From an uncultured Flavobacteriales bacterium (GTDB lineage Bacteria; Bacteroidota; Bacteroidia; Flavobacteriales_D; Crocinitomicaceae), in contig CAJQPA010000035.1 of the NCBI GenBank assembly GCA_905480145.1, positions 1 through 56,194 of the forward strand: DNA of 56,194 nt. The letters are read 5' to 3'. The position numbers and the translations under genes were made by a program. The notes under the pieces are model-generated. The model was given only the letters and a program-made list of their open reading frames with translations, did no database searches and had not been told where the DNA came from. Shown piece after piece: positions 5,800 to 41,359 of the stretch (position 1 is the stretch's first letter; each line of letters starts with the position of its first letter).

Positions 5800-7020
5800 T
5801 TAATTAACTTTTACTGCAATTCTATGACATGCATTATTTAAATATCCTTTAGGATTCCATCCTGGCACAAGCATTGGTTGAGCATTGTTCTTGCTGTCAG
5901 TAGCTCTTGCCCAAACTTCATAATACCCTTTTTTTGGAAAGTTAACTTTGGCTGAGAAATGTTGCCAAGCTAATCGATTGGCAGGTTTTTCAACATTACA
6001 ACGAGTCCAGGTAGAACCAAAATCAATAGAATATTCCATTTTAGCAACTTCTAATTCCCCTGCCCAGGCATGGCCTCTAATGGATAAAGTTTTTCCTCCT
6101 TTTATCATCGCACCAGACTTTGGATATGTAATTAACGATTTTACGGGCATAGATTCAATAATGCACATGTCTTCATCCTTTACTTTTTCTCCCGGAGCAA
6201 CTGGACTGCATGGGACTCTATAAGCAGTTCCTGTCATTTTTGTACCATCATGAATTTTGTTACGGATACTAATTCTATTCACCCATTTTCCAGAAACTGA
6301 AGCTGGCCAGCCACCTGCCACTAAACGCAATGGATATCCATGTATTAAAGGGATATCCTCTCCGTTCATTTTAAAGGCCAAAATAGTTTCATCTTGCAAT
6401 GCTTTTCCTATCGGACAACCTCTGGAAATAGGTTCTTTTGATGAGTCCCCACTTAAATGCGAATCTACGGCATGAAATCCTATATATACAGCATTACTCT
6501 TAATACCCGCATCTTCCAAAACATCTCGCAATCGCACACCTGTCCATGTTGCAGCATGCACTGCCCCAACTGTCCATTGGTTTCCTTTTGCAGGCGGATT
6601 AAATTCGCTTCGTCCATTACCACCGCACTCTATCGTTAACTGGTATGTGTACTGTTTAAATTTAGATTTTATCTCAGCTAGTGTGTATGTTTTTTTGTTT
6701 ACAACCGACTCTCCATCTATTGTAAGTGTCCATTTTTTTGCATCAATGCCTTCAGGTATTAATCCATTATTTCTAACAAACATAGCTGAGTTGGGCGTAA
6801 TCTTATTATCCAGTAAATGTGCTTGCGCCTCAATATTCAAAGGTTTGTCATTGAGCAGAATCATGTCTTTGTGCTTACCAAATATTTTAAATGGATCCGA
6901 GTCTTCTAAAGCCAGAGGCTTATACCCTTCTAGTAAATTAGACCCAAAAACAAGTTCCGCTCCAATAAGCGCAGCAAACGAACTCAGGGTTGTTTTTTTT
7001 ATAAAGTCTCTTCTTTTCAA
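5800..7020 (-). CDS. Periplasmic sulfite oxidase, molybdopterin-dependent (SorA-like), Tat-exported
   Basis: A 406-residue member of the sulfite oxidase family, predicted to oxidise sulfite to sulfate and hand two electrons to the cytochrome encoded next door. The N-terminus has a twin-arginine signal (KRRDFIKKTTLSSF). The molybdenum ligand Cys132 lies in TIECGGNGRSEF, followed by GAVHAATWTGVRLRDVL and the active-site segment HGYPLRLVAGGWPASVSGKW typical of the fold; an Ig-like dimerisation domain fills the last 120 residues. The only start that keeps the Tat signal is a TTG at 7018-7020; no in-frame ATG lies near. The cotranslocated Moco enzyme needs TatC, encoded at 30.6-31.4 kb. No haem b5 domain is present, as in bacterial forms. 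Confidence 0.88.
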   Translation of the reverse strand: MKRRDFIKKTTLSSFAALIGAELVFGSNLLEGYKPLALEDSDPFKIFGKHKDMILLNDKPLNIEAQAHLLDNKITPNSAMFVRNNGLIPEGIDAKKWTLTIDGESVVNKKTYTLAEIKSKFKQYTYQLTIECGGNGRSEFNPPAKGNQWTVGAVHAATWTGVRLRDVLEDAGIKSNAVYIGFHAVDSHLSGDSSKEPISRGCPIGKALQDETILAFKMNGEDIPLIHGYPLRLVAGGWPASVSGKWVNRISIRNKIHDGTKMTGTAYRVPCSPVAPGEKVKDEDMCIIESMPVKSLITYPKSGAMIKGGKTLSIRGHAWAGELEVAKMEYSIDFGSTWTRCNVEKPANRLAWQHFSAKVNFPKKGYYEVWARATDSKNNAQPMLVPGWNPKGYLNNACHRIAVKVN

Positions 7021-9655: not shown

Positions 9656-12600
9656 ATGGCGAGTAAGAAAAAATTTGGTGCTTTTGCTGGTGTATTTACT
9701 CCTTCTATCTTAACGATACTTGGTGTAATCATGTACATGAGAATGGGCTGGGTTGTAGGTAATGCTGGCCTTATTGGTACCATTTTAATTATTCTTATTG
9801 CACATGTAATAGCTGTTTCTACAGGATTGAGTGTTTCCTCTGTAGCAACCAATAAAAAAATTGGAGCTGGAGGAATATATTATGTACTCTCACGAAGCAT
9901 GGGGATTCCAATTGGAGGGTCAATTGGAATTGCTCTATATGTCGGTACTGCCTTTTCGATTGCCTTATATCTCATTGGTTTTGCTGAAAGTTTTAATGGT
10001 TATTTTGGATTAGGAACCACAATAAATGACCTACGATTAACAGGAACGGCTGCTTTAATGATTCTTACAGCGTTAGCTTTAATAAGTACGTCTGCAGCAT
10101 TGAAAGCGCAGTTTTTTATTCTTGCAGCAATCGTAATTTCATTGGTGTCTATCTTTTTAGGTAATTCTGAATCAGCTCCGGAAACAGTAAATATGTTCAG
10201 TTCAGACGGCAGTGCCTCGTTGGAAGTTGTGTTTGCCATATTCTTTCCCGCGGTAACTGGTTTTACGGCAGGTATTGCGATGAGTGGGGATTTAGAGAAT
10301 CCCAAAAAGTCAATACCAGCAGGTACGTTATGGGCAATCGGTGTTGGATTGGTCGTTTATATAACACTCGCTGTATTTATTGCTTATTCTGTTGATCCAA
10401 AACTTTTGAAAACGGACAATAATATATTGATGAAAATCGCACTTTTTGCTCCGGCTGTGGTTGCTGGTATTTGGGGTGCAACATTGTCTTCAGCTATAGG
10501 AGGTATCTTAGGAGCCCCTAGGATTTTACAAGCAATGTCTTTGGATAAAGTCACACCTAAGTTATTTGGCAAAGGGAAAGGGAAGAACAATGAACCGGTC
10601 AACGCTTTGATTCTTGCATTTGTTATTGCTGAGACTGGAATCCTGATAGGAGAATTAGATGTCATCGCAAGGGTGGTTTCGATGTTCTATTTGACAGCGT
10701 ATGGTTTTATCAACATTTCATTCTTTCTTGAAAGCTGGGCGAATCCTGATTTTCAGCCAACTTTTAAAGTTAAAAGATGGATTGGCCTTATCGGTTTCCT
10801 GGCTTGTTTTGCTGTAATGTTTAAACTCGACATGGTCGCAATGTTTGGAGCATTTGCAGTTGTTGGTGGATTATACTTGATGCTGCAGAGAAAGCAAATA
10901 CAATTACAATCGAACGATGTTTGGCAAAGTGTATGGAGTAATGTTGTGAATAAAGGATTGAAAAGGTTGGGATCACAAGATGCCAAAAATGCGAATTGGA
11001 GTCCAAACGTTATTCTGTTTTCGGGTGATTATAAACACCGTACAAAACTATTGGAATTTGGAAAGACAGTTTCAGGTAAAACAGGGATTGTAACAGATTT
11101 CAAATTAATTGAAGGTGTTAGTACTTTTGCTAAAAATAAGCAATTTAATCAGGATCAAATTCTTGATAAACTAGGAATTTACGGACGTAAAGTAGCAGTA
11201 GAGGATAGGTATTCTGGCATTGAAAACATTGCGTCTACATATGGTTTTTCTGGTGTTGAGCCAAACACGATTATGATGAACTGGTCACGCACGACAGAGG
11301 ATCCCGTGAGGTATGCTCTTATGACGCAACGTTTAATGGAACTCGATTATAACTTGTTGTATTTAGATTTTGATGAACGATTTAATTTTGGAGATCATAC
11401 AACAATAGATATATGGTTGCGAGAAGCAGATAGTAAGAATGCAGAATTAATGTTAAATGTTGCTAGATACATTTCACAGTCTTCTGATTGGTCAAAAGCT
11501 AAAATACGCGTTCTTTTTGTCAATCAAAACAACACTGACAATGAGAAAATTAAAGCTAAGATCTCTAAATTGGTGGATAGTCTTAGAGTCGATGCTGAAA
11601 TTAAAATCATCAATAATGGAGTTGAACAGAAGTCGTTCTATGAAATTATTGAGCTTCAGTCTACTTCTATTGATTTGATTTTATTGGGAGTTCCGAACAT
11701 TAAAATTGAAGATCAGGCTCAATATGTTTTAAATACAGACCACTTATTTGAATCGGTAGGGACCACTCTGTTGGTAAAGGCATCGAAAAATTTCAATGAG
11801 ATTGATTTGGCATTCTCAGACAATGCATCAAAAGAAACGACAAAAGTTCAGCAAATAGAAGCGCTTCATGAGGGAGAATACTCTGGCGTTAACCTTTATG
11901 TAAAAGGATACAATGAGCATCTAGAGAATTCGGTAAGTGCGTTTACCAAACAATCAATTAGTGATATTTCTCGGTCGTATCAGGAGTTAATTGAGAGTTC
12001 GAAAATTCAATTTAAAAATTCAATTGATAAACTAGAGAAGAACCATTCATCGGCTAAGGTATTGAAAGTGTTTAAGAAGTTTGTTTCTTTTCAGATTCAA
12101 GAGGTAAAAGGTTTCAAAAAGAATAAACTACCTGTATTGGGAGAGCAACTTGATCAAAGTTTAGCGGTTTTTTTAGATGGACGAATTGACTTCATTAGAA
12201 AATCTTCAAGAAGAATTCATTTGGGAACCTTTGAAGGGAAATCAATGAATAAGAAAGTGAAATGGAAAAGCGTTTTAGGTCAACATTATCGCTTAAATAT
12301 TTTACCAAACACGAAAGTTGTTTTATTTGATTTTGGTGTCCAGAATACAATGTTTCTAAATAAATTGGGTGAGTCTGTTTCAAAAGAACTTCAATTGTAC
12401 TTAGAAAAAACTGAAAGTGATAAGTCAAATAGAAGTGACTATTTCGAGGCATTTAAAAAGGAATGTGAACAATTGTTTGATGCTTTATTGAAAAGTGCTC
12501 AGCAACTAGAGTCTGATATAGTGAATGGCTTAAATTCATTTGAAAGAAACCTAAGTAATGAATTGGCACAACAAATTCAATCCGAGAATTATCGTGCTAA

Positions 12601-14644
12601 ATTGAAAGCTGAATCAAAGTTGATTCATAGAAAAACGCATCGATATTTGCAGGAGGAGGTAGTTGATTTTGGAGGAAATTGGTTAAGAAATCAATTGTTG
12701 ACAATTACACAAACAGGATCAAACCTTGAACTTTCAAAGGTCGGAATGACTTTAATGGGGGTAAATATTCTGGTAAAAAATAGAATTAGTCGCATAACAA
12801 TAAAGCCTTTAGAGCACGAAATGAATGCTTTCAAAGAAGCAGTCGTTTATGTTAAAAATAACCTTGGGAAAGATGTTTTGTCAAGCTATAAAAATAAAAC
12901 ACTCGATAAATTAATAGAGGATGTACCTCAAATCAACTTTGATGAGGTGTTGAAAAATGAGGAAGATAAAATTCTTTCGATTTCTTTAAAAAGCCCAGAT
13001 CAAGTTAAGGTGATGAGCGCAGACTCATTCAATAATTTACGGGAATGCCAAAACGAAAATGTGAATGATGTGAGTGTCAGTCTGTCCAATATCATTGACT
13101 TTATTGTGCGAACAAATTACCTGACACCTTTGCAAGAGTCCTTGAGAAATTTAGAGGCAATATTCAAGGAAGGAACGGAAGAGATTTATAATTCTTCGAA
13201 CTTGGTTAAATACATTCTTGGAGAAAAACTGACAGAAGAAAACAAAGGTGAGTTTAGCAAGAGTCTGTTAGATGAGAACAATAGAATAGTTGAGAAAATA
13301 GATCAGCTTCATAAAATCGAATCATCTTTTAGTTATGATTTGGCCATTAAACTAAAGAGTACGTTATCTGCGTTAAATATCCGGAGCATAATAGAATCCA
13401 TTGATTCTTATTCCAAAGTATCGATTAAAACCATTGATCGCTCTCAATTAGGAAGTTGGTATTATAATCAAAAGAATAAAGTCGTATCTAAATATGACAA
13501 GGCTTATAAATACGTAGTTCAAAGAAAACGTGATGTCGATAACATTAATTTCATTCAAAAGAACGAAGCTGTATTAAGTAAAATAGAACGTGCGAGTAAA
13601 TTCGTTAAGGAGCACTCTTTAAGCAGCGATATTGGCGATGGTCTATCTTTCTATTATAAAAAATTATTTTCAGGCAGTCACCTTGGAAACATAAATCCAG
13701 AATATCGTGGTCGTGAGATTCAAGATATTAGCAATGCAATTGAACGAATTGACAATGGAACAAATGGTGGTTTGTTAATTTTAGGAGAATCACAATCAGG
13801 AAAGTCATTTTTCATTGAGTCAACAGCGAATAAAATTGGTAGAGAGAAAGTTTATATTTCTAAACCAGCGAAGCAAAAATTTAAAAAAGAGGATGTTATT
13901 CTTTCATTTCAAACTGCGTTTAACCAAGAAGCTACAATAGAAAATATACTAGAGAAAGTTGATTCTAAAACGGTTATTATTATCGAAGATATTGAGCAAT
14001 GGTGGTTGAAAGCAGAAGGGGGGCATGAGGCCATTGATTATTTAACATCTATAATTAAAGAGTACGGATCTAAGTTCTATTTCTTATTGTCTGCTAATAT
14101 TCATAGTTACGGTGTATTGTCTCAAACAACAACTTTAGACACTTGTTTAATTGCGAATGTGCTTGTTGCACCATCGAGAAGAATGGAATTTAAAGAAATA
14201 TTAATGAGCAGGCATAAAACGGCGAACTCAGAAGTATACTTTAATAAGCAGTTGGTTAAAAATGCGCATAAGTTAGACGGTTTAATTACAGAAATCATCA
14301 ATGAAACCAAAGGTAATACCGGGGCCGGCTTGAAACTCTGGCTAAGTCAAATTGAAAGATCTGATGACAATGAGATGGTTGTTTCCCGTCCAGACAATAT
14401 AGATTTCCCCAATATTAAGGATGCGAACTGGCGATTAACATTGTACTTATTAGTCATTCATGGAACCTTAGACGAAATTAGAATTGATGCAATGATCAAT
14501 GACGGAGCTGCCATTTTCTCTTCTCTTGAAGAAATGAAATTGGCATCAATCGTTTTACAAAAATCAAATGGGGATTATTTTATTTCTGACGCTGTCAAGT
14601 ATTATATTGAAGAGTGGTTGATAAAAATTAAATTATTGAACTAA
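9656..14644 (+). CDS. Cation-chloride cotransporter (SLC12-like) fused to a helical region and an AAA+ ATPase
   Basis: A 1662-residue protein in one uninterrupted frame. Residues 9-410 are an APC-fold transporter with cation-chloride cotransporter signatures: GVFTPSILTILGVIMYMRM, SVATNKKIGAGGIYYVLSRS, TGFTAGIAMSGDLENPKKSI and SSAIGGILGAPRILQAM. Residues 440-710 match the cytosolic SLC12 tail (IDIWLREAD, KAKIRVLFVNQ). Residues 745-1340 are long, charged and mostly helical, with no motif I recognise. From 1350 an Orc1/STAND-like ATPase follows: YRGRE, Walker A GESQSGKS at 1377-1384 (bases 13784-13807), Walker B VIIIED at 1440-1445, sensor-1-like LLSAN, and a winged-helix-like end from about 1590. 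Known bacterial family members lack the ATPase as far as I know. It probably moves K+, Na+ or Cl- under ATP-dependent control; ion and direction are unknown. An MscS-like gene starts 4 bases later. Confidence 0.85.
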   Translation: MASKKKFGAFAGVFTPSILTILGVIMYMRMGWVVGNAGLIGTILIILIAHVIAVSTGLSVSSVATNKKIGAGGIYYVLSRSMGIPIGGSIGIALYVGTAFSIALYLIGFAESFNGYFGLGTTINDLRLTGTAALMILTALALISTSAALKAQFFILAAIVISLVSIFLGNSESAPETVNMFSSDGSASLEVVFAIFFPAVTGFTAGIAMSGDLENPKKSIPAGTLWAIGVGLVVYITLAVFIAYSVDPKLLKTDNNILMKIALFAPAVVAGIWGATLSSAIGGILGAPRILQAMSLDKVTPKLFGKGKGKNNEPVNALILAFVIAETGILIGELDVIARVVSMFYLTAYGFINISFFLESWANPDFQPTFKVKRWIGLIGFLACFAVMFKLDMVAMFGAFAVVGGLYLMLQRKQIQLQSNDVWQSVWSNVVNKGLKRLGSQDAKNANWSPNVILFSGDYKHRTKLLEFGKTVSGKTGIVTDFKLIEGVSTFAKNKQFNQDQILDKLGIYGRKVAVEDRYSGIENIASTYGFSGVEPNTIMMNWSRTTEDPVRYALMTQRLMELDYNLLYLDFDERFNFGDHTTIDIWLREADSKNAELMLNVARYISQSSDWSKAKIRVLFVNQNNTDNEKIKAKISKLVDSLRVDAEIKIINNGVEQKSFYEIIELQSTSIDLILLGVPNIKIEDQAQYVLNTDHLFESVGTTLLVKASKNFNEIDLAFSDNASKETTKVQQIEALHEGEYSGVNLYVKGYNEHLENSVSAFTKQSISDISRSYQELIESSKIQFKNSIDKLEKNHSSAKVLKVFKKFVSFQIQEVKGFKKNKLPVLGEQLDQSLAVFLDGRIDFIRKSSRRIHLGTFEGKSMNKKVKWKSVLGQHYRLNILPNTKVVLFDFGVQNTMFLNKLGESVSKELQLYLEKTESDKSNRSDYFEAFKKECEQLFDALLKSAQQLESDIVNGLNSFERNLSNELAQQIQSENYRAKLKAESKLIHRKTHRYLQEEVVDFGGNWLRNQLLTITQTGSNLELSKVGMTLMGVNILVKNRISRITIKPLEHEMNAFKEAVVYVKNNLGKDVLSSYKNKTLDKLIEDVPQINFDEVLKNEEDKILSISLKSPDQVKVMSADSFNNLRECQNENVNDVSVSLSNIIDFIVRTNYLTPLQESLRNLEAIFKEGTEEIYNSSNLVKYILGEKLTEENKGEFSKSLLDENNRIVEKIDQLHKIESSFSYDLAIKLKSTLSALNIRSIIESIDSYSKVSIKTIDRSQLGSWYYNQKNKVVSKYDKAYKYVVQRKRDVDNINFIQKNEAVLSKIERASKFVKEHSLSSDIGDGLSFYYKKLFSGSHLGNINPEYRGREIQDISNAIERIDNGTNGGLLILGESQSGKSFFIESTANKIGREKVYISKPAKQKFKKEDVILSFQTAFNQEATIENILEKVDSKTVIIIEDIEQWWLKAEGGHEAIDYLTSIIKEYGSKFYFLLSANIHSYGVLSQTTTLDTCLIANVLVAPSRRMEFKEILMSRHKTANSEVYFNKQLVKNAHKLDGLITEIINETKGNTGAGLKLWLSQIERSDDNEMVVSRPDNIDFPNIKDANWRLTLYLLVIHGTLDEIRIDAMINDGAAIFSSLEEMKLASIVLQKSNGDYFISDAVKYYIEEWLIKIKLLN

Positions 14645-14648
14645 TCGA

Positions 14649-15329
14649 ATGAAAAATATCACAGATATACCGGTTCAAAGTTTATTCCTTCTGTTTTTTA
14701 TGGGAGGGGTTCTCGCGCTTTCTTTTTATATCATAAGAAATTACGTTATCCCATTGTTGAGAAACAACAAAGGAATCGTTAAAAAGTATTGGCAGAAAAC
14801 AGAAATAGTGACTTGGCTTGTGTATACTTCTGCCTTGCTGCTTGTTCTTTTAAGAGTGAACTTCTTTTTGTCATTGATAATTCTAGCGGTGCTGTTGATT
14901 TTAGGATGGAGTTATTTGAGAAATATTTTAGCTGGAATAATTATTAAATTAACTGACCAGTTCATAATTGATGAAGTGATATCTGCAGATTTTGGTGAAG
15001 GGAAAATCAAGTCAATTTGGATGTCAATGACGGAAATCAGTAATGGAAAAGGCGAGTTGATTTCTATTCCAAATCATGTTTTGAGGTCTTCGGTGGTAAG
15101 ACATCTGCATAAAAAAAGTAACCTAAAGACAAATACGTTTCATTTTACTTTAACTGAAAACAGTTCTTTACAGGCGATAAAAAAGATGGTCATTAATTGT
15201 CCTTTCATCGCGGTAAATCAAGATGTATTGGTTGAACGTGTTTCTGAAAAGGAATGCATAATTAAGGCGACACTGATTGATGCGAGTTTTGAGGAACAAG
15301 TATACTTGTATCTTAAGAATAGGGAGTGA
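14649..15329 (+). CDS. MscS-like mechanosensitive channel, short form
   Basis: A 226-residue protein with three spans (about 10-30, 47-67, 68-100) and a short cytosolic beta domain. The pore helix and beta entry align with MscS: NILAGIIIKLTDQFIIDEVI, then GEGKIKSIWMSM and GELISIPNHVLRSSVV, the latter matching the conserved IPN motif. It is shorter than E. coli MscS (286 residues), and the usual Gly/Ala-rich packing of the pore helix is weak (LAVLLILGWSYLRN), so gating may differ. The start lies four bases after the stop of the cotransporter-ATPase gene, so the two are almost surely one transcript; together they could balance ion uptake and release under osmotic stress. Confidence 0.75.
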   Translation: MKNITDIPVQSLFLLFFMGGVLALSFYIIRNYVIPLLRNNKGIVKKYWQKTEIVTWLVYTSALLLVLLRVNFFLSLIILAVLLILGWSYLRNILAGIIIKLTDQFIIDEVISADFGEGKIKSIWMSMTEISNGKGELISIPNHVLRSSVVRHLHKKSNLKTNTFHFTLTENSSLQAIKKMVINCPFIAVNQDVLVERVSEKECIIKATLIDASFEEQVYLYLKNRE

Positions 15330-33825: not shown

Positions 33826-36800
33826 ATGAGATTATTCCTTTTAATTATTTCGTTTTTCTTTATCCAAAATTCTTTTTCTCAGTTGACTGCTGATTTTTCA
33901 GCCGCTTCTGTGCAAGTTTGCATAGGAGAGTCAATAGAATTATCTGATTTATCCACAGCCGGTGCTTCAGCAATCGAGTTTTGGACATGGGATTTTGGTG
34001 ATGGAACGAACTCTTCAGATCAAAACCCAACGCATACTTATGCAATAGCGGGCAACTATAATATTACTCTGACAATTCAAGCTTTTGACGGTTCTTCAGA
34101 CTTTGAGGTCAAACCAGCTTATATTGTTATTAATGCCTTACCACTTGTAGATTTCACTGTGAATTCAGGAGGATGCATTGTACCATTGGATGTTACTTTT
34201 AATAATTTGTCTTCTGCAGGTGCCAATATAGAATACAGCTGGGACTTTGGCAATACTCAAACTTCTACGGATTTTTCTCCAATTGATATAAGTTATGGAG
34301 CTACTGGTAATTATTCAATTATTCTAAATGTCCTAGATACTGATACTGGTTGTTCTAATTCAGACACTTTAGATTTAGTTGTGAATGATTTTTCAGGAGG
34401 TATTGATGCTCCATTAACTGTTTGTGTTGGTGAAGCCGCTCAAATTGACAATGCTTCTACTGTAGGAAGTACATCTTGGGAATGGGAATTTGGAGATGGA
34501 GGAGTTTCTTCATTGGAGAATAATTCACACATCTATTCTACTCCTGGAACTTATACAATATCTCTAAGTGTTTTAAATTCAGTTGCGGGCTGCTCGGATG
34601 ATGTCACGCAAGAAATAGAGGTACTTCCGCTTCCGGTTCCAACTTTTACTTCATCAACCAATCTTGGTTGTGCGCCTTTGGATGTCGATTTTACTAATAC
34701 TTCAGTAGGTGGTGTTAGTTATGATTGGGATTTTGGAAATGGCAATGTGTTTTCAGGTGAAACACCGCCGACTGAGTTGTATGCTTCAAATGGATTTTAT
34801 GATGTTAGTTTAGCGATGACTGATGCCAATGGATGTTCAAATATCGTCGTAATCGATAATATGATTGAAGTGGATGCATTAGAAGTTGAATTTGTTGCTG
34901 ATGTTGTAAATGGATGTGCTCCATTAGATGTTCAGTTTACGGATAATTCCCTGCCTCTTGACGCTGCTGACCCAATTACGGGGTGGGATTGGGACTTTGG
35001 AAATGGAGGAACTTTTAGTGGAGAATTCCCCCCTGTTGAAACATATGGAACCGGTGTTTATGATGTGACGCTAACAATTAGTACTGATAATGGTTGCTCT
35101 GCTGATAGCACTTATACTCAATATATAGAAGTAGGTACAGTTGGTACCGTAGATTTTAGTCTTTCACTAGTAGATTCTTGTGCCAAATCTGAATTTCTTT
35201 TTACAAATGAGTCTATTTTCGTTCCAACTCCTGATCCAGGAGAGGTAGATTTTGAATGGGACTTTGGAGATGGTGGTACATCTACAGATGAAAATCCTAC
35301 GTATAATTACCCATCAGACACCGGATATTTTGATGTACAACTTATAGTTGATTTCCGAGGGTGCAGAGACACTTTATTGATTCCTCAAATGGTATATATC
35401 AAAGCACCAATTTCAATGTTCAACGCATCAAGCACGTTGTTTTGTAACCCTAATTCTTTTCCGGTAACAGTTGACTTTACCGATAATTCAATCATTGGTG
35501 CAATACCTGACGATGCGGAAATGTTTTGGACATGGGGAGATGGCACCTTTGACAATCTAGATGATCCAGATTTTGATGATAGCGACTTAGGTTCGATGTC
35601 TCACGATTATGGAACATATGGGACTTATACAATTCAACAAGCCATATATAATTATACCACCGGATGTGAAGATAGTACAACAACAACAATTGTTATTTCA
35701 GAAACGATTGCTGATTTTTCAATCTCATCGGACTCAACTTGTTTAGGTTCAAGTGTTTCTTTAATGGATAATTCTTCATCAACAGACCCTTTTGGAACTT
35801 ATGCTTATAATATGGGTAATTCTCAATCTCTAACTGGGGCTAATGTGAATTATACATATCCAAGTTCTGGCGCATTTGATGTTCAACTAATTGCAACCAA
35901 TAGTGTTGGTTGTTCAGACACCGCAGATTATGCAGGGTTTGATGTTCTTGCTAATCCTGTTGCTTCATTCACGGCTTCAGATGTTACGGGTTGTGCACCT
36001 TTGGATGTTGATTTTACAAATACTTCATCTATACAAGGAAATGGAGTTCCAATAGAATCATCTTTATGGACATTTTATGATTTGTCGACTGCGACTACGC
36101 CAGACGTCAGTTTTACTTTCACCACACTTGGAACATATGCGACTCAGTTGGTAGTTACTGATGAGTTTGGTTGTGTTTCACCTTCCGTGTCGGTGAATGT
36201 CTCCTTAACTAAACCTGTAGCAGATTTTATTATGGATTCTGTTGTTTGTAATATGGTAGATTATTCAATAACAAGCTCATCTGGTGGAGTAGGTCCTTTA
36301 GTGTACGTTTGGAATATTGATGGGGTTAATGTTTCTAGTGATCAATCCTATACAGGGCAATTTAACGATATTGAAACACCTTCCGTTAACGTACAAGATC
36401 ACGATGTTGAACTAATTGTTTTTGATGCTAACGGTTGCAGTGATACTATGATCATGGATGTTCAAGTTTCGATGCCTTATGCAAATGTCAACTATGCTTT
36501 TAATGGAGCGAGTGTGAACGCAGATGGTGATTATAATTGCCCTCCAGTTTTTGCCGATTTAACAGATGTTTCATCATCTTTCGGAGATATAGCGAGCTGG
36601 AATTGGAGCTTTGGTAATGGTAACACTTCAATTGAAGCTAATTCTGCATCAAATACATATGTGTTTGCAGGAACATACACTTTGGATATGATGATAACTG
36701 ATCAATGGGGTTGTGTCTCGGATACTTCATTAATTGATTACTTGACTATATTCGGACCTTCAGCTGAACCTACATTTGTCAATATTGGTAATTTTTGCGA

Positions 36801-37548
36801 GCCATTATATGAATTTAGTATTGATGATGAAATCAATGTTAGTGATATTCAATGGACGTTGGGAGACGGGACAAATAACGCGGGTAATCAAACATTTGAG
36901 CATGATTATTTAACTTCAGGTACATACAATCCTCAAGTAACAATTTCAGATGAAAATGGATGTGTAGTGGTGTATGATTTAGGTTCAATTACAATTAATA
37001 ACAATCCAATTGAAGTTAATGTAGTTTCATCTATGAGTATCGGTAACGCCAATGAAATTTTCACTTTTTCGAATACAACTACAGGCGGTTCTGGACCTAT
37101 TGTTGACTGGATGTGGGATTTTGCAGAAAGTGGAGTCATAAATAACTCGGGAGAAGATGTTACCAATTCATGGAATATTCCAGGTGGCCATTATGTTGTT
37201 TTAACAGTAACTGATGCGAACGGATGTACAGGTATTGATTCAGTATTAATACAAATTTCAGATGTTGTGAATGTTCCTAATGTATTTACACCGAATGGTG
37301 ATGGCATCAATGACTTCATGACATTAGATTATAATGTATTTGATGATGGATTTGATTTGGTTATTTTAAATAGATGGGGTAATGTTGTTCATGAAGTGAA
37401 GGCTGAAGCAGGCTTAATTTTATGGGATGGTAATTCAATGGCGGGTAAGGAATGTAATGACGGTGTTTATTTCTATAAAATCAAGGGTGTTTTGTTCGGA
37501 GAAGAAACCGTTAAACAAGGTCATGTAAGCTTATTAAGAGGTTTATAA
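33826..37548 (+). CDS. Giant PKD-repeat surface protein with T9SS type B signal (copy 1)
   Basis: A 1240-residue exported protein. A signal peptide (MRLFLLIISFFFIQNSFSQ) is followed by about 13 PKD-like Ig domains of 85-95 residues, each with variants of the W-x-FGDG and Y-x-x-x-G-x-Y-x-V motifs (TWDFGDGTNSS, WEFGDGGVSS, WDFGNGGTFSG, WTWGDGTFDN). Cys recur once or twice per domain and probably form intradomain disulfides. The last 94 residues are a type B (gliding-associated, CHU_C-like) sorting domain: NVPNVFTPNGDGIND, LVILNRWGNVV, GVYFYKIKG. It should be secreted through the type IX system and attached to the surface, likely as an adhesin or matrix protein; no enzyme motif. A full-length paralogue follows directly. 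Confidence 0.9.
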   Translation: MRLFLLIISFFFIQNSFSQLTADFSAASVQVCIGESIELSDLSTAGASAIEFWTWDFGDGTNSSDQNPTHTYAIAGNYNITLTIQAFDGSSDFEVKPAYIVINALPLVDFTVNSGGCIVPLDVTFNNLSSAGANIEYSWDFGNTQTSTDFSPIDISYGATGNYSIILNVLDTDTGCSNSDTLDLVVNDFSGGIDAPLTVCVGEAAQIDNASTVGSTSWEWEFGDGGVSSLENNSHIYSTPGTYTISLSVLNSVAGCSDDVTQEIEVLPLPVPTFTSSTNLGCAPLDVDFTNTSVGGVSYDWDFGNGNVFSGETPPTELYASNGFYDVSLAMTDANGCSNIVVIDNMIEVDALEVEFVADVVNGCAPLDVQFTDNSLPLDAADPITGWDWDFGNGGTFSGEFPPVETYGTGVYDVTLTISTDNGCSADSTYTQYIEVGTVGTVDFSLSLVDSCAKSEFLFTNESIFVPTPDPGEVDFEWDFGDGGTSTDENPTYNYPSDTGYFDVQLIVDFRGCRDTLLIPQMVYIKAPISMFNASSTLFCNPNSFPVTVDFTDNSIIGAIPDDAEMFWTWGDGTFDNLDDPDFDDSDLGSMSHDYGTYGTYTIQQAIYNYTTGCEDSTTTTIVISETIADFSISSDSTCLGSSVSLMDNSSSTDPFGTYAYNMGNSQSLTGANVNYTYPSSGAFDVQLIATNSVGCSDTADYAGFDVLANPVASFTASDVTGCAPLDVDFTNTSSIQGNGVPIESSLWTFYDLSTATTPDVSFTFTTLGTYATQLVVTDEFGCVSPSVSVNVSLTKPVADFIMDSVVCNMVDYSITSSSGGVGPLVYVWNIDGVNVSSDQSYTGQFNDIETPSVNVQDHDVELIVFDANGCSDTMIMDVQVSMPYANVNYAFNGASVNADGDYNCPPVFADLTDVSSSFGDIASWNWSFGNGNTSIEANSASNTYVFAGTYTLDMMITDQWGCVSDTSLIDYLTIFGPSAEPTFVNIGNFCEPLYEFSIDDEINVSDIQWTLGDGTNNAGNQTFEHDYLTSGTYNPQVTISDENGCVVVYDLGSITINNNPIEVNVVSSMSIGNANEIFTFSNTTTGGSGPIVDWMWDFAESGVINNSGEDVTNSWNIPGGHYVVLTVTDANGCTGIDSVLIQISDVVNVPNVFTPNGDGINDFMTLDYNVFDDGFDLVILNRWGNVVHEVKAEAGLILWDGNSMAGKECNDGVYFYKIKGVLFGEETVKQGHVSLLRGL

Positions 37549-37633
37549 CTCGACTGTTTCCGATTTAATAGATGCGTCAATAAGGATAATTAATAGTGCG
37601 TTGAATCAATATACTGCGCCACAACATACTTGT

Positions 37634-40600
37634 ATGAAAACATTAATATTTTGTATTGGTTTTATTTTACTAAATACACATTCTTTTTCTCAGTTAAATG
37701 CAGATTTTTCAGCAACCCCTCTGTCAATTTGTTTGGGAGAAGAAATCATTTTTAATGATTTATCAACATTCGGAGGATCTCCAATCGTAAATTGGACATG
37801 GGATTTTGGTGATGGAACTGGATCTTCAATTCAAAACGCGTCACACACGTATTTGACTCCAGGTACTTATTCTGTTACATTGGTAATTCAGGCGCTAGAT
37901 GGCACTTCAAACGTTGAGGTGAAACCTGCTTATTTGGTTGTCTCATCACTTCCAACTGCAAGCTTTACTGTTAATACTAACGACTGCACTGTTCCAATGG
38001 AAGTTACTTTTACTAATTTTTCTTCATCAGGGTTTGATTTTACATATGAATGGGACTTGGATAATGGTCAAACATCGAATGAATTCTCCCCAGTTGGCAT
38101 TTCGTATTCGAATGCAGGGGAATATACGGTTATTCTCGATGTGTTAAGTAGTTCATCGGGTTGTTCAAATTCAGATACCTTAACATTCAATGTAAATGAC
38201 TTTGCAGGTGGTATTGATGCCCCTTCGCAAGCTTGTGTCGGTGATATTGTGCAAATAAACAATGCATCTACAGTCGGCAGTACATCTTGGGGATGGAATT
38301 ATGGTGATTTAGGGACTTCAAATACCGAAAATGGTTCTCATATTTATTCTACCTCAGGTACTTATACTATAACCTTGAATGTTCAAAACACTGCAAATGG
38401 TTGTTCTGATGTCGTAACTCAGGATATTGAAATTTTATCTCTTCCAACTCCTTCTTTAACGGCATCACCAATAATTGGTTGTTCCCCGTTGAATGTTACG
38501 TTCACAAATACATCTATCGGAGGTACTTTATATAATTGGGACTTTGGAAATGGAAATACATTTAGCGGAGAAACACCGCCTGATGAACAATACACTTCCA
38601 GTGGAATATACAGTGTGGATTTAACAATGACTGATGAGAATGGTTGTACAAATACTATGACGTATGATGATTTGATAAATGTTCAAGAGTTAGAAGTTGT
38701 TTTTGTGGCGGATGTAATAGACGGTTGTGATCCAGTATTGACTCAATTTACAGATAATTCAGTTCCTATAGAAGCAACCGATCCAATTATTAATTGGGAT
38801 TGGGATTTTGGAAATGGAGTCGTTTTTAGTGGTGAGAATCCACCCATTCAGACATACACGGCTGGTGTTTATGATGTTGCATTGACAATTACTTCAGCCA
38901 ATGGGTGCATGACAAGTGGTACTTATGTTGGTTATGTTGAAGTCGGAGATATTGATCTTGTTAATTTTAGCGTTGATCCAATACTTAACTGTGCAAAATC
39001 ACCGTTTTCATTCACTAATTTATCCGTGATATCCGTTCCTCATAATCCCAGTGAAATTGATTATGATTGGAATTTTGGAGATGGTGGTTCATCTTCACAA
39101 CAAAATCCAACATATAATTACCCAGTTGATACAGGTTATTTTGATGTGCAATTGGCTCTTGATTTTAGGGGGTGCAAAGACACTTTGATACAACCTCAGG
39201 TGGTATTTGTGAAAGCACCTATTTCATCGTTTAGTCCTTCGAATACATTGTTTTGTAATCCTTCTTCTTTACCCTTAAATATTGACTTCACGGATAACTC
39301 AATTATCGGAGCTATTTCAGATGATGCAGCAATGATTTGGACTTGGGGTGACGGTACTTTTGATAATTTAGATGATCCAGATTTTGATGATGGAGATTTG
39401 GGTTCTATGTCACATGATTATTCAGCATATGGAACTTATACTATTCAGCAAGCGATATATAATTATTCTACTGGTTGCGAGGATAGTACTTCTGTCACAA
39501 TTGTAATTTCAGAAATCAATTCTGATTTTGGAGTTTCAACGGATTCCGTTTGTTTGAATTCGCTAATTACATTAACTGATAATTCAAATTCAAGCGATTC
39601 AATTGTTAATTACTTGTATAATATGGGTAATGGATCATCACTCAATGGAGCAGATCAAATATATACATATCCTGCTTCTGGTAATTTCGATATTACTTTA
39701 ACCACTACTAATGATGAGGGGTGTAGTGATTCATATATATACAGTACCATGAATGTTTTGGAGTTACCTATTGCCGATATTTTGTCGTCTCATGATTTTG
39801 GATGTACTGATTTAGACGTAATATTTACTAACAATTCATCAATAGCTGGAAACGGTGTTCCCATTGATTTTTATCAATGGACTATGCCTGATTTATCAAA
39901 TACCTCAATGTTAAATACAAGCTATACGTTCACTACAGAAGGGTTTTTTACAACTAGTTTGTTGGCAACGGATGTGTTTGGTTGTGTTTCTTTGGTTGAT
40001 ACTGCAATCGTTCACTTAACAAAACCATCGGCAAGTTTCATATTGGACACCGTGGTTTGCAATAATGAACAGTTTCTTGTCACCAATACATCTGATGGGT
40101 TTGGAGCGCTAATATATACATGGTATGTTGACGGAGTAGCTACTTCTGGGTTTGAGAATTATACAGGCCAATTTGATGAAATTGAGGACCCTCTAGTTCT
40201 TTTTACTGATCATACTCTTGAATTAATTGTTGAGGACGCGCATGGATGTCTAGACACTTCAAATATTAACATGCACGTTTCTATGCCAAACGCCAATGTA
40301 AATTACTCGTTAAGTGGAGCTAGTATAAATACAGAGGGTGAATTTGTTTGCCCTCCTGTATTTGCAAGTTTTGTAGATTCTTCATCTTCTTATGGAGAAA
40401 TCATTGGTTGGAATTGGAATTACGGCAATGGAAATACCTCGACGGTGCCTGATTCCTCTGCAAATACATATGTATTCGCTGGTACATATTCTATGGACAT
40501 GATGATTACGGATGAATGGGGATGCACTTCAAACGACTCCTTAATAGATTACCTTACAATTGGCGGACCTTCCGCGGATTTCGAATGGGTGAATATTGGA

Positions 40601-41359
40601 GACATTTGTGAACCTAGACAAGAATTCAGTGCTACAAACCAAATAAATGTGGATAATATTGAATGGATTCTTGGGGACGGAAATGTTCTATTAGATTCAG
40701 CAACTTTTGACTATGCTTATGGCTTAACGAACACATACTTTCCCCAAGTTATCCTAACGGATACAAGTGGTTGTGCTGTTACTTATGAGTTGAATCCTAT
40801 TTCAGTTGATGTAAATCAAGTCAATGCTTTATTCAGTTCTTCACTTTCTTCAGGGATTACAGGTCAGGAGTTCATCTTTATGGACGAAACTACAGGGGGT
40901 ACAGGACCAATTGTAACATGGGATTGGGATTTTACTCAAAGCTCTTTATTCAATTCTACGAACACTGATGTATCTTATGCCTGGACTACTCCTGGTGTTC
41001 AATTAGTGACCTTATCGGCCACTGATAGTAATGGCTGTGTTGGAGTTTATTCATTAGAGTTTCCTATAATCGATGCGACTAATGTTCCAAATGTTTTTAC
41101 ACCAAATGGAGATGGTGTAAATGATCAATTAATTTTGGATTTCAATATGTTTGATAATGGTTTTGATTTGGTCATCCTGAATAGGTGGGGAAATACTGTT
41201 TACCAAGTGACTGAAAAAGAAGGATTAGTTCTTTGGGATGGACTCGCTATGGACGGAAAAGAATGCGTTGACGGAGTTTATTTTTATAAAATAAAAGGGA
41301 CAATGCTAGGCGAAGAAATATTAAATCAAGGACACGTTACTTTATTGCGAGGGTTTTAA
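37634..41359 (+). CDS. Giant PKD-repeat surface protein with T9SS type B signal (copy 2)
   Basis: A 1241-residue protein that aligns end to end by eye with the gene before it, domain for domain. I start at ATG 37634 (MKTLIFCIGFILLNTHSFSQ, a clean signal peptide), 11 codons inside a TTG-initiated frame. The same number of PKD-like domains follows, then the type B sorting domain (NVPNVFTPNGDGVND, LVILNRWGNTV, GVYFYKIKG). Conservation is highest in the seventh domain (WTWGDGTFDNLDDPDFDD identical in both) and in the C-terminal signal, and lower in the outer loops. The gap between the two genes is 85 bases with no terminator, so they are probably co-transcribed. The stop overlaps the converging lipoprotein gene by four bases. 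Confidence 0.9.
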   Translation: MKTLIFCIGFILLNTHSFSQLNADFSATPLSICLGEEIIFNDLSTFGGSPIVNWTWDFGDGTGSSIQNASHTYLTPGTYSVTLVIQALDGTSNVEVKPAYLVVSSLPTASFTVNTNDCTVPMEVTFTNFSSSGFDFTYEWDLDNGQTSNEFSPVGISYSNAGEYTVILDVLSSSSGCSNSDTLTFNVNDFAGGIDAPSQACVGDIVQINNASTVGSTSWGWNYGDLGTSNTENGSHIYSTSGTYTITLNVQNTANGCSDVVTQDIEILSLPTPSLTASPIIGCSPLNVTFTNTSIGGTLYNWDFGNGNTFSGETPPDEQYTSSGIYSVDLTMTDENGCTNTMTYDDLINVQELEVVFVADVIDGCDPVLTQFTDNSVPIEATDPIINWDWDFGNGVVFSGENPPIQTYTAGVYDVALTITSANGCMTSGTYVGYVEVGDIDLVNFSVDPILNCAKSPFSFTNLSVISVPHNPSEIDYDWNFGDGGSSSQQNPTYNYPVDTGYFDVQLALDFRGCKDTLIQPQVVFVKAPISSFSPSNTLFCNPSSLPLNIDFTDNSIIGAISDDAAMIWTWGDGTFDNLDDPDFDDGDLGSMSHDYSAYGTYTIQQAIYNYSTGCEDSTSVTIVISEINSDFGVSTDSVCLNSLITLTDNSNSSDSIVNYLYNMGNGSSLNGADQIYTYPASGNFDITLTTTNDEGCSDSYIYSTMNVLELPIADILSSHDFGCTDLDVIFTNNSSIAGNGVPIDFYQWTMPDLSNTSMLNTSYTFTTEGFFTTSLLATDVFGCVSLVDTAIVHLTKPSASFILDTVVCNNEQFLVTNTSDGFGALIYTWYVDGVATSGFENYTGQFDEIEDPLVLFTDHTLELIVEDAHGCLDTSNINMHVSMPNANVNYSLSGASINTEGEFVCPPVFASFVDSSSSYGEIIGWNWNYGNGNTSTVPDSSANTYVFAGTYSMDMMITDEWGCTSNDSLIDYLTIGGPSADFEWVNIGDICEPRQEFSATNQINVDNIEWILGDGNVLLDSATFDYAYGLTNTYFPQVILTDTSGCAVTYELNPISVDVNQVNALFSSSLSSGITGQEFIFMDETTGGTGPIVTWDWDFTQSSLFNSTNTDVSYAWTTPGVQLVTLSATDSNGCVGVYSLEFPIIDATNVPNVFTPNGDGVNDQLILDFNMFDNGFDLVILNRWGNTVYQVTEKEGLVLWDGLAMDGKECVDGVYFYKIKGTMLGEEILNQGHVTLLRGF

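Follow-up and report, generated by a model that had tools for sequence, protein, structure and literature searches.

The window, a stretch of 56,194 nucleotides from an uncultured Crocinitomicaceae bacterium (Flavobacteriales), encodes a cation-chloride cotransporter (CCC) of the SLC12 family whose chain continues as a long helical stretch followed by an AAA+ domain of the Orc1/Cdc6 type. The gene for an MscS-family channel-like protein lies directly downstream. The fusion recurs in other genomes, an MscS-family gene constantly adjoins the AAA+ part, and in related loci the AAA+ part is joined to a different type of transporter. On balance, it is probable that the helical-AAA+ protein and the MscS channel form a unit for the control of ions and turgor, with the CCC transporter fused to it as a third arm.

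The fusion gene (9656-14644, forward strand) is a single open reading frame of 1662 amino acids with no internal stops. From the N- to the C-terminus, the chain consists of the SLC12/CCC cotransporter, its cytosolic domain, the long helical region, the Orc1/Cdc6-like AAA+ domain and a winged-helix end. The features, all on the forward strand, are as follows.

9656-10900, +: membrane domain of the CCC/SLC12 transporter, residues 1-415 (Pfam, phmmer alignments to PDB chains, site counts in 43 fusions)
10901-11800, +: cytosolic C-terminal domain normal for CCCs, residues 416-715 (the alignment to KCC1 and KCC4 ends at residue 654-655)
11882-13561, +: long-helix region, residues ~743-1302 (AlphaFold model, conservation by block, dN/dS)
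13709-14242, +: Orc1/Cdc6-like AAA+ core, residues ~1352-1529 (Pfam, AlphaFold model, Foldseek, PDB profile search)
13784-13807, +: Walker A, GESQSGKS, residues 1377-1384 (sequence; Lys in 39 of 43)
13976-13990, +: Walker B strand, IIIED, residues 1441-1445, with Glu at the Asp position (alignment to 2qby; counts)
14243-14644, +: lid and C-terminal winged helix, residues ~1530-1662, and stop (AlphaFold model)
14649-15329, +: MscS-family channel-like partner, 226 aa, 4 bp past the fusion gene (PF00924, profile, model, adjacency)

The window protein has SLC12/CCC sequence similarity across both the membrane and the cytosolic domains. Residues 13-414 match AA_permease in Pfam (E 7e-48), and residues 5-655 align to the PDB chains of KCC4, KCC1 and NKCC1 (E ~1e-71 to 1e-70). 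The NCBIfam K-Cl cotransporter model matches with an E of 2.5e-110, yet with 370 bits against a curated cut-off of 953. The positions of the K+, Cl- and Na+ sites of KCC4 and NKCC1, taken from PMC11994965 and PMC7035313, were placed onto the window protein via the PDB-chain alignments and counted over 43 fusions. The K+ and Cl- sites together draw on TM1, TM3, TM6 and TM10; I21, Y105, P198 and T201 of the former and G23, V24, I25, G202 and Y349 of the latter are identical in all 43, as are A275, S278 and S279 of the NKCC/NCC-type Na+ site in TM8. Two positions depart from this pattern: the Asn of the K+ site is replaced by T20 in 43/43, and the TM1 Trp of the NKCC1 Na+ site is Leu22 in the window protein. 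The pattern as a whole favours a Na+-coupled, NKCC-like carrier, which may or may not use K+.

Pfam matches the AAA+ end weakly. AAA_16 (E 4.4e-6) and AAA (E 4.6e-4) both match residues 1350-1481 slightly below the Pfam gathering scores. Residues 700-1662, as modelled by AlphaFold (mean pLDDT 83), form long helices at ~743-1302, then a P-loop alpha/beta domain, a lid and a winged helix, the placement of these domains being unreliable at a pTM of 0.54. The best Foldseek match of this model is Cdc6/Orc1 (2qby; E 9e-7, target TM 0.52), and ClpX and ClpC are also matched. In a search of the PDB with an AAA+ profile, 2qby (E 1.4e-6) ranked second behind a designed P-loop protein; the tail alone had no match in the PDB by phmmer. 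As modelled, the tail ends in a P-loop fold of the Orc1/Cdc6 type that includes both the lid and the winged helix.

The preliminary description of this DNA had proposed a CCC transporter joined to a helical region and an AAA+ domain in one chain, and an Orc1/STAND-type P-loop ATPase with a winged helix and intact Walker A and B motifs. The single chain is borne out by the open 1662-codon frame and by the survey of other genomes that it had suggested, in which 43 full-length copies were found and aligned. The type of ATPase agrees with the Foldseek and PDB profile matches and with the P-loop fold present in the AlphaFold model. The claim of intact motifs holds for Walker A, where GESQSGKS satisfies the GxxxxGK[ST] pattern, and only loosely for Walker B (pattern hhhhD[DE]), where the window protein reads IIIED and Glu1444 occupies the position of the Cdc6 Asp. 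That position is acidic in 15/43 fusions and Asn in 16/43; the residue after it, Asp1445, is Asp in 34/43, and G1553 and W1562 are invariant in all 43. Given the Walker A Lys in 39/43 and the degenerate Walker B Asp position, the AAA+ domain is probably a nucleotide switch that would bind nucleotide, its hydrolysis being doubtful. Nucleotide binding may have been lost in some copies, the Lys being absent from 4/43 and the Walker B Asp position non-acidic in 28/43.

All surveys were made within Bacteroidota. Of 199 genomes sampled from the window's own order, 48 have the tail, and a profile of the AAA+ end matches 76 in a sample of 395 genomes across the phylum. The 43 aligned fusions, window included, are made up of 41 (40 from the order search plus L032, with the window among the 41) and L103-L105, which are fusions from other classes of the phylum. 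L032 is a named contig ('Crocinitomix sp.', order Flavobacteriales) and the one relative obtained by scanning genome contigs with the tail. Outside the alignment stand several pieces (L005, L012/L013, L019, L022, L025, L028), L041, which has no transporter, and L048, which is split. Length is kept among the 43 (1633-1705 aa), including that of the helical region, which is poorly conserved in sequence. Mean identity per block is ~0.5-0.85 in the transporter, ~0.25-0.35 in the helical region and ~0.3 in the tail. In close pairs, dN/dS is 0.02-0.05 for the transporter, 0.10-0.18 for the helical region and 0.08-0.16 for the AAA+ domain (computed in 11 of the 12 closest pairs, the twelfth being saturated in the tail). 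Purifying selection thus acts on all three parts in close pairs and, together with the kept length, this indicates that the tail is a working part.

AAA+ folds often act as protein remodellers, and the tail might remodel membrane proteins or help to assemble them, the MscS partner included, with the transporter as a mere membrane anchor. The ClpX and ClpC matches would fit such a role. Against it stand the degeneracy at the Walker B Asp position, the ion sites of the transporter, conserved in 43/43 fusions, and a constraint on the transporter that is tighter than on the tail; this explanation is unlikely.

The partner gene is assigned to the MscS family by Pfam (PF00924, E 6.6e-9) and by profile matches to YnaI and MscS (E 9e-11). 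The best Foldseek match of its model (pLDDT 76) is MscS (2vv5) with an E of 1.6e-10 and a TM of only ~0.4. The model contains TM helices, a beta-domain and an alpha/beta end, so that the protein has the predicted MS_channel beta-domain and MscS fold; gating by tension is putative.

An MscS-family gene abuts 83 of 88 AAA+ loci, downstream in 71 and upstream in 12, and follows all 43 full-length CCC fusions. The MscS-family ORF is at most 120 bp away in 80/88; in L122, L123 and L124 it overlaps, a gene start having been placed too early by the ORF finder. As a background, 784 other neighbour ORFs in 81 of the AAA+ loci include five further MscS ORFs. The 88 loci come from 87 records (G266 is counted twice, and the duplicate L012 was dropped); they cover 47 of the 48 tail-bearing genomes of the order, all except G090 (L164), whose tail lies at a contig start, and 40 of the 76 phylum genomes with the AAA+ module. 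The MscS profile used here was partly built from these partners themselves; PF00924 was found independently, by Pfam, in the partners of the window, L041, L103, L106, L107, L110, L115, L128 and L131. Five loci lack an abutting MscS gene. L022 lies at a contig edge with a trace of a match, the CCC piece of L025 has no channel gene within 1.3 kb, and that of L028 has none in the 735 bp remaining. In L048 the MscS part lies inside the same ORF as the AAA+ part. This was considered as a Rosetta-stone fusion of AAA+ and MscS and rejected, since the single ORF is due to insertions that neither L043 nor L046 has; the first of these insertions, two bases long, is missing from L163 as well. The fifth locus, L120, is considered below. 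Beside an unfused AAA+ gene in L106 (1848-5986, reverse strand), a row of three MscS-family ORFs is found with a CorA gene.

The channel gene follows the AAA+ part and not the transporter. In L041 and beside unfused AAA+ proteins (~750-1140 residues), the MscS gene is kept where the AAA+ protein carries no transporter. Conversely, the order also contains tail-less CCCs (~750 aa, 30-34% identity) in 24 genomes, one of them in two pieces. The loci of 20 of these 24 were fetched, some as short stretches owing to contig ends, and the AAA+ and MscS profiles matched none of their 163 ORFs (0 of 20 loci). Closer CCCs sit in frames of ~1640-1706 aa unless cut or broken (e.g., G096, at a contig end). 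One tail-less CCC, L162 (3906-7223, forward strand), lies in a 1105-aa ORF with ~360 residues ahead of the transporter, either a fusion or an over-called start. In L110 (6995-7891) and L111 (8193-9089), AAA+ ORFs without the helical region (298 aa by start codon, in 448-codon open frames) are still followed by MscS.

In a second group, the AAA+ protein carries a different transporter. L115, L116, L117 and L142, four of the five fusions of this clade, have a Na+/H+ exchanger (PF00999) at the N-terminus. The fifth, L118, belongs to the clade by the tree, and its N-terminal piece has no Pfam match, PF00999 included. TrkH adjoins the MscS gene in all five loci, three of them (L115, L116 and L118) have a confirmed TrkA, and an exchanger-like gene precedes the fusion in the two loci tested (profile scores of 36 bits in L115 and 35 bits in L116). 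The gene run of L115-L118 and L142, with an exchanger-like gene, the exchanger-AAA+ fusion, MscS and TrkH (and TrkA after it in three loci), looks like an operon for K+/Na+ homeostasis. In L119, L120 and L121, the PF00999 exchanger is a separate gene beside an unfused AAA+ gene. L122 (5995-10392, reverse strand) encodes a 1465-aa AAA+ protein with 10-13 TM helices at its N-terminus, and TrkH and TrkA lie upstream; neither Pfam, the PDB nor the exchanger profile identified this N-terminus, and L122 may be a third case of a fused transporter.

In a quick tree that covers 70 of the 88 AAA+ domains (midpoint root, no bootstrap), the exchanger fusions fall into one clade (SH-aLRT 98) and the 12 upstream-MscS cases into another (SH-aLRT 100). 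The CCC fusions need two changes on this tree, with L041 as the one unfused row within them. From this tree, an ion transporter was fused to the AAA+ protein at least twice and was likely lost once.

Beyond the pair itself, there are 103 operon-like neighbours, the majority of which do not code for ion-related proteins. Pfam assigned 15 to SDF symporters and 12 to chorismate synthase, counts that come largely from closely related genomes, 6 each to an oxidoreductase and TrkH, 5 to TrkA_N, 3 to Na+/H+ exchangers and 2 to CorA. In the window, a chromate-transporter family gene (PF02417; 8394-9530) lies on the same strand 125 bp upstream of the fusion; phmmer did not find it as a neighbour in other loci. 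The CCC part of the window is 71% (G105) and 69% (G075) identical to that of another family, compared to 55-59% within its own, and the four same-genus genomes among those listed have neither the CCC part nor the tail. This could be explained by transfer between lineages or by an error in binning. Further along, at 33826-41359, two tandem proteins (1240 and 1252 aa) carry PKD domains and CHU_C ends of type IX secretion.

A STAND-like P-loop with a winged helix, a fast-changing tail (~0.3 mean identity compared to ~0.5-0.8 in the transporter) and patchy presence (76/395 phylum genomes) would also fit an anti-phage or conflict system, in which the AAA+/STAND domain would open the MscS pore on sensing an invader, so that the cell is killed or arrested. 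Weak matches to the PADLOC mad8 ATPase in L107, L115 and L121 (three of four AAA+ proteins, and none in that of the window) point the same way. However, the window fusion and its partner match no PADLOC family at E 0.01. Among the 103 neighbours, at E 1e-6, no family has more than two members among the matches listed (25 of 108 families). Phage records contain no match, the AAA+ part has no plasmid match, and the module is fused to ion transporters and has TrkH, TrkA, CorA and exchangers nearby. We regard a conflict system as distinctly improbable; a defence island was rejected on the PADLOC results for the fusion, the partner and the listed neighbour families, together with the phage records. 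The preliminary description had offered both ion regulation, by an ATP-gated or self-assembling protein, and defence. Ion regulation gains support from MscS next door and from the exchanger, TrkH and TrkA genes of related loci, with gating by ATP and self-assembly as putative features. Defence is not supported, with no PADLOC match for fusion or partner and none in phage records, the weak mad8 matches of three relatives speaking in its favour. Right about the fusion, the ATPase type and the ion role, it had overlooked the MscS partner, the unfused form and the exchanger fusion.

The partner might also be a scaffold and not a channel, with the AAA+ domain regulating the transporter alone. L120 carries at the partner position (6426-6983, reverse strand) a 185-aa membrane ORF without the MscS beta-domain, which implies that some copies of the unit do without a functional pore. 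Pfam did not find PF00924 in the partners of L119 and L120, that of L119 having no Pfam match at all. Against this, an MscS gene stays beside AAA+ genes that carry no fused transporter, and the partner of the window is modelled with TM helices, beta-domain and alpha/beta end; there is little chance that the scaffold explanation is correct. An assembly artefact or a chance read-through of two genes, which the broken or cut pieces of several relatives (private insertions in L048, contig edges in others) might bring to mind, is refuted by 43 full-length, one-frame copies in independent genomes and by purifying selection.

The preferred explanation thus remains a control unit whose constant core would be a cytosolic helical-AAA+ protein encoded beside an MscS-family channel. 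The fusion, the fold, the constant adjacency and the change of transporter type are observed, whereas contact between AAA+ protein and channel, the direction of transport and the effect of nucleotide belong to a mechanism that we infer. In this clade, fusion of an NKCC-like CCC to the AAA+ protein would mean that the arm for salt uptake, the channel for its release and the controller that binds nucleotide are made together. The Orc1/Cdc6-like domain would bind ATP or ADP as a switch, not as a motor, and the long helices might relay its state between the cytosolic domain of the transporter and the cytosolic vestibule of MscS, thereby setting salt uptake and release against each other. It is tempting to go further and to speculate that all of this is one volume-control machine, where the AAA+ switch holds both the transporter and the MscS channel and gates them oppositely; this is a tentative proposal. 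If true, turgor would be set by energy state and ion load through an AAA+ switch acting on transporter and channel, and a channel of the mechanosensitive type would be gated by an AAA+ protein.

In osmotic control, secondary transporters and MscS channels are regarded as distinct devices. An AAA+/MscS pair to which different transporters are fused would be a case where a single nucleotide-binding controller governs both uptake and release, and the constant pairing of AAA+ protein and channel suggests a built-in system for the control of cell salt and swelling. It would offer a testable system for the setting of bacterial turgor, and a bacterial counterpart to SLC12 regulation in cell-volume control. 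No description of such a fusion or gene pair was found among the open-access papers searched, a collection that mostly excludes subscription papers. The novelty lies in the system, as every part belongs to a known family.

The fusion shares its membrane and cytosolic domains, the K+ and Cl- residues other than T20, and the Ala-x-x-Ser-Ser of the NKCC-type Na+ site with SLC12 proteins (NKCC1, KCC1-4 and tail-less bacterial CCCs). It differs from them by a ~950-residue helical-AAA+ tail, by Thr at the position of KCC4 N131 and NKCC1 N298, and by the constant adjoining MscS gene. With the Orc1/Cdc6 AAA+ ATPases (2qby), the tail has in common the P-loop core, lid and C-terminal winged helix, but it is membrane-tethered or encoded beside a channel gene, it shows degeneracy at the Walker B Asp position, and its gene context suggests no role in replication. 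The partner has the TM helices, beta-domain and C-terminal alpha/beta domain of MscS/YnaI channels, and is distinguished by its short length (226 aa) and its tie to the AAA+ gene. The TrkH-TrkA and KtrB-KtrA systems of K+ uptake offer an analogy, as there a cytosolic protein that binds nucleotide governs an ion transporter; TrkA, however, belongs to the Rossmann RCK proteins and not to the AAA+ proteins. The pairing of a transporter with a nucleotide-binding controller would be alike here, whereas the controller is an AAA+ protein and a channel partner is added, and TrkH and TrkA themselves sit in the same gene run as the AAA+ fusions of the exchanger clade.
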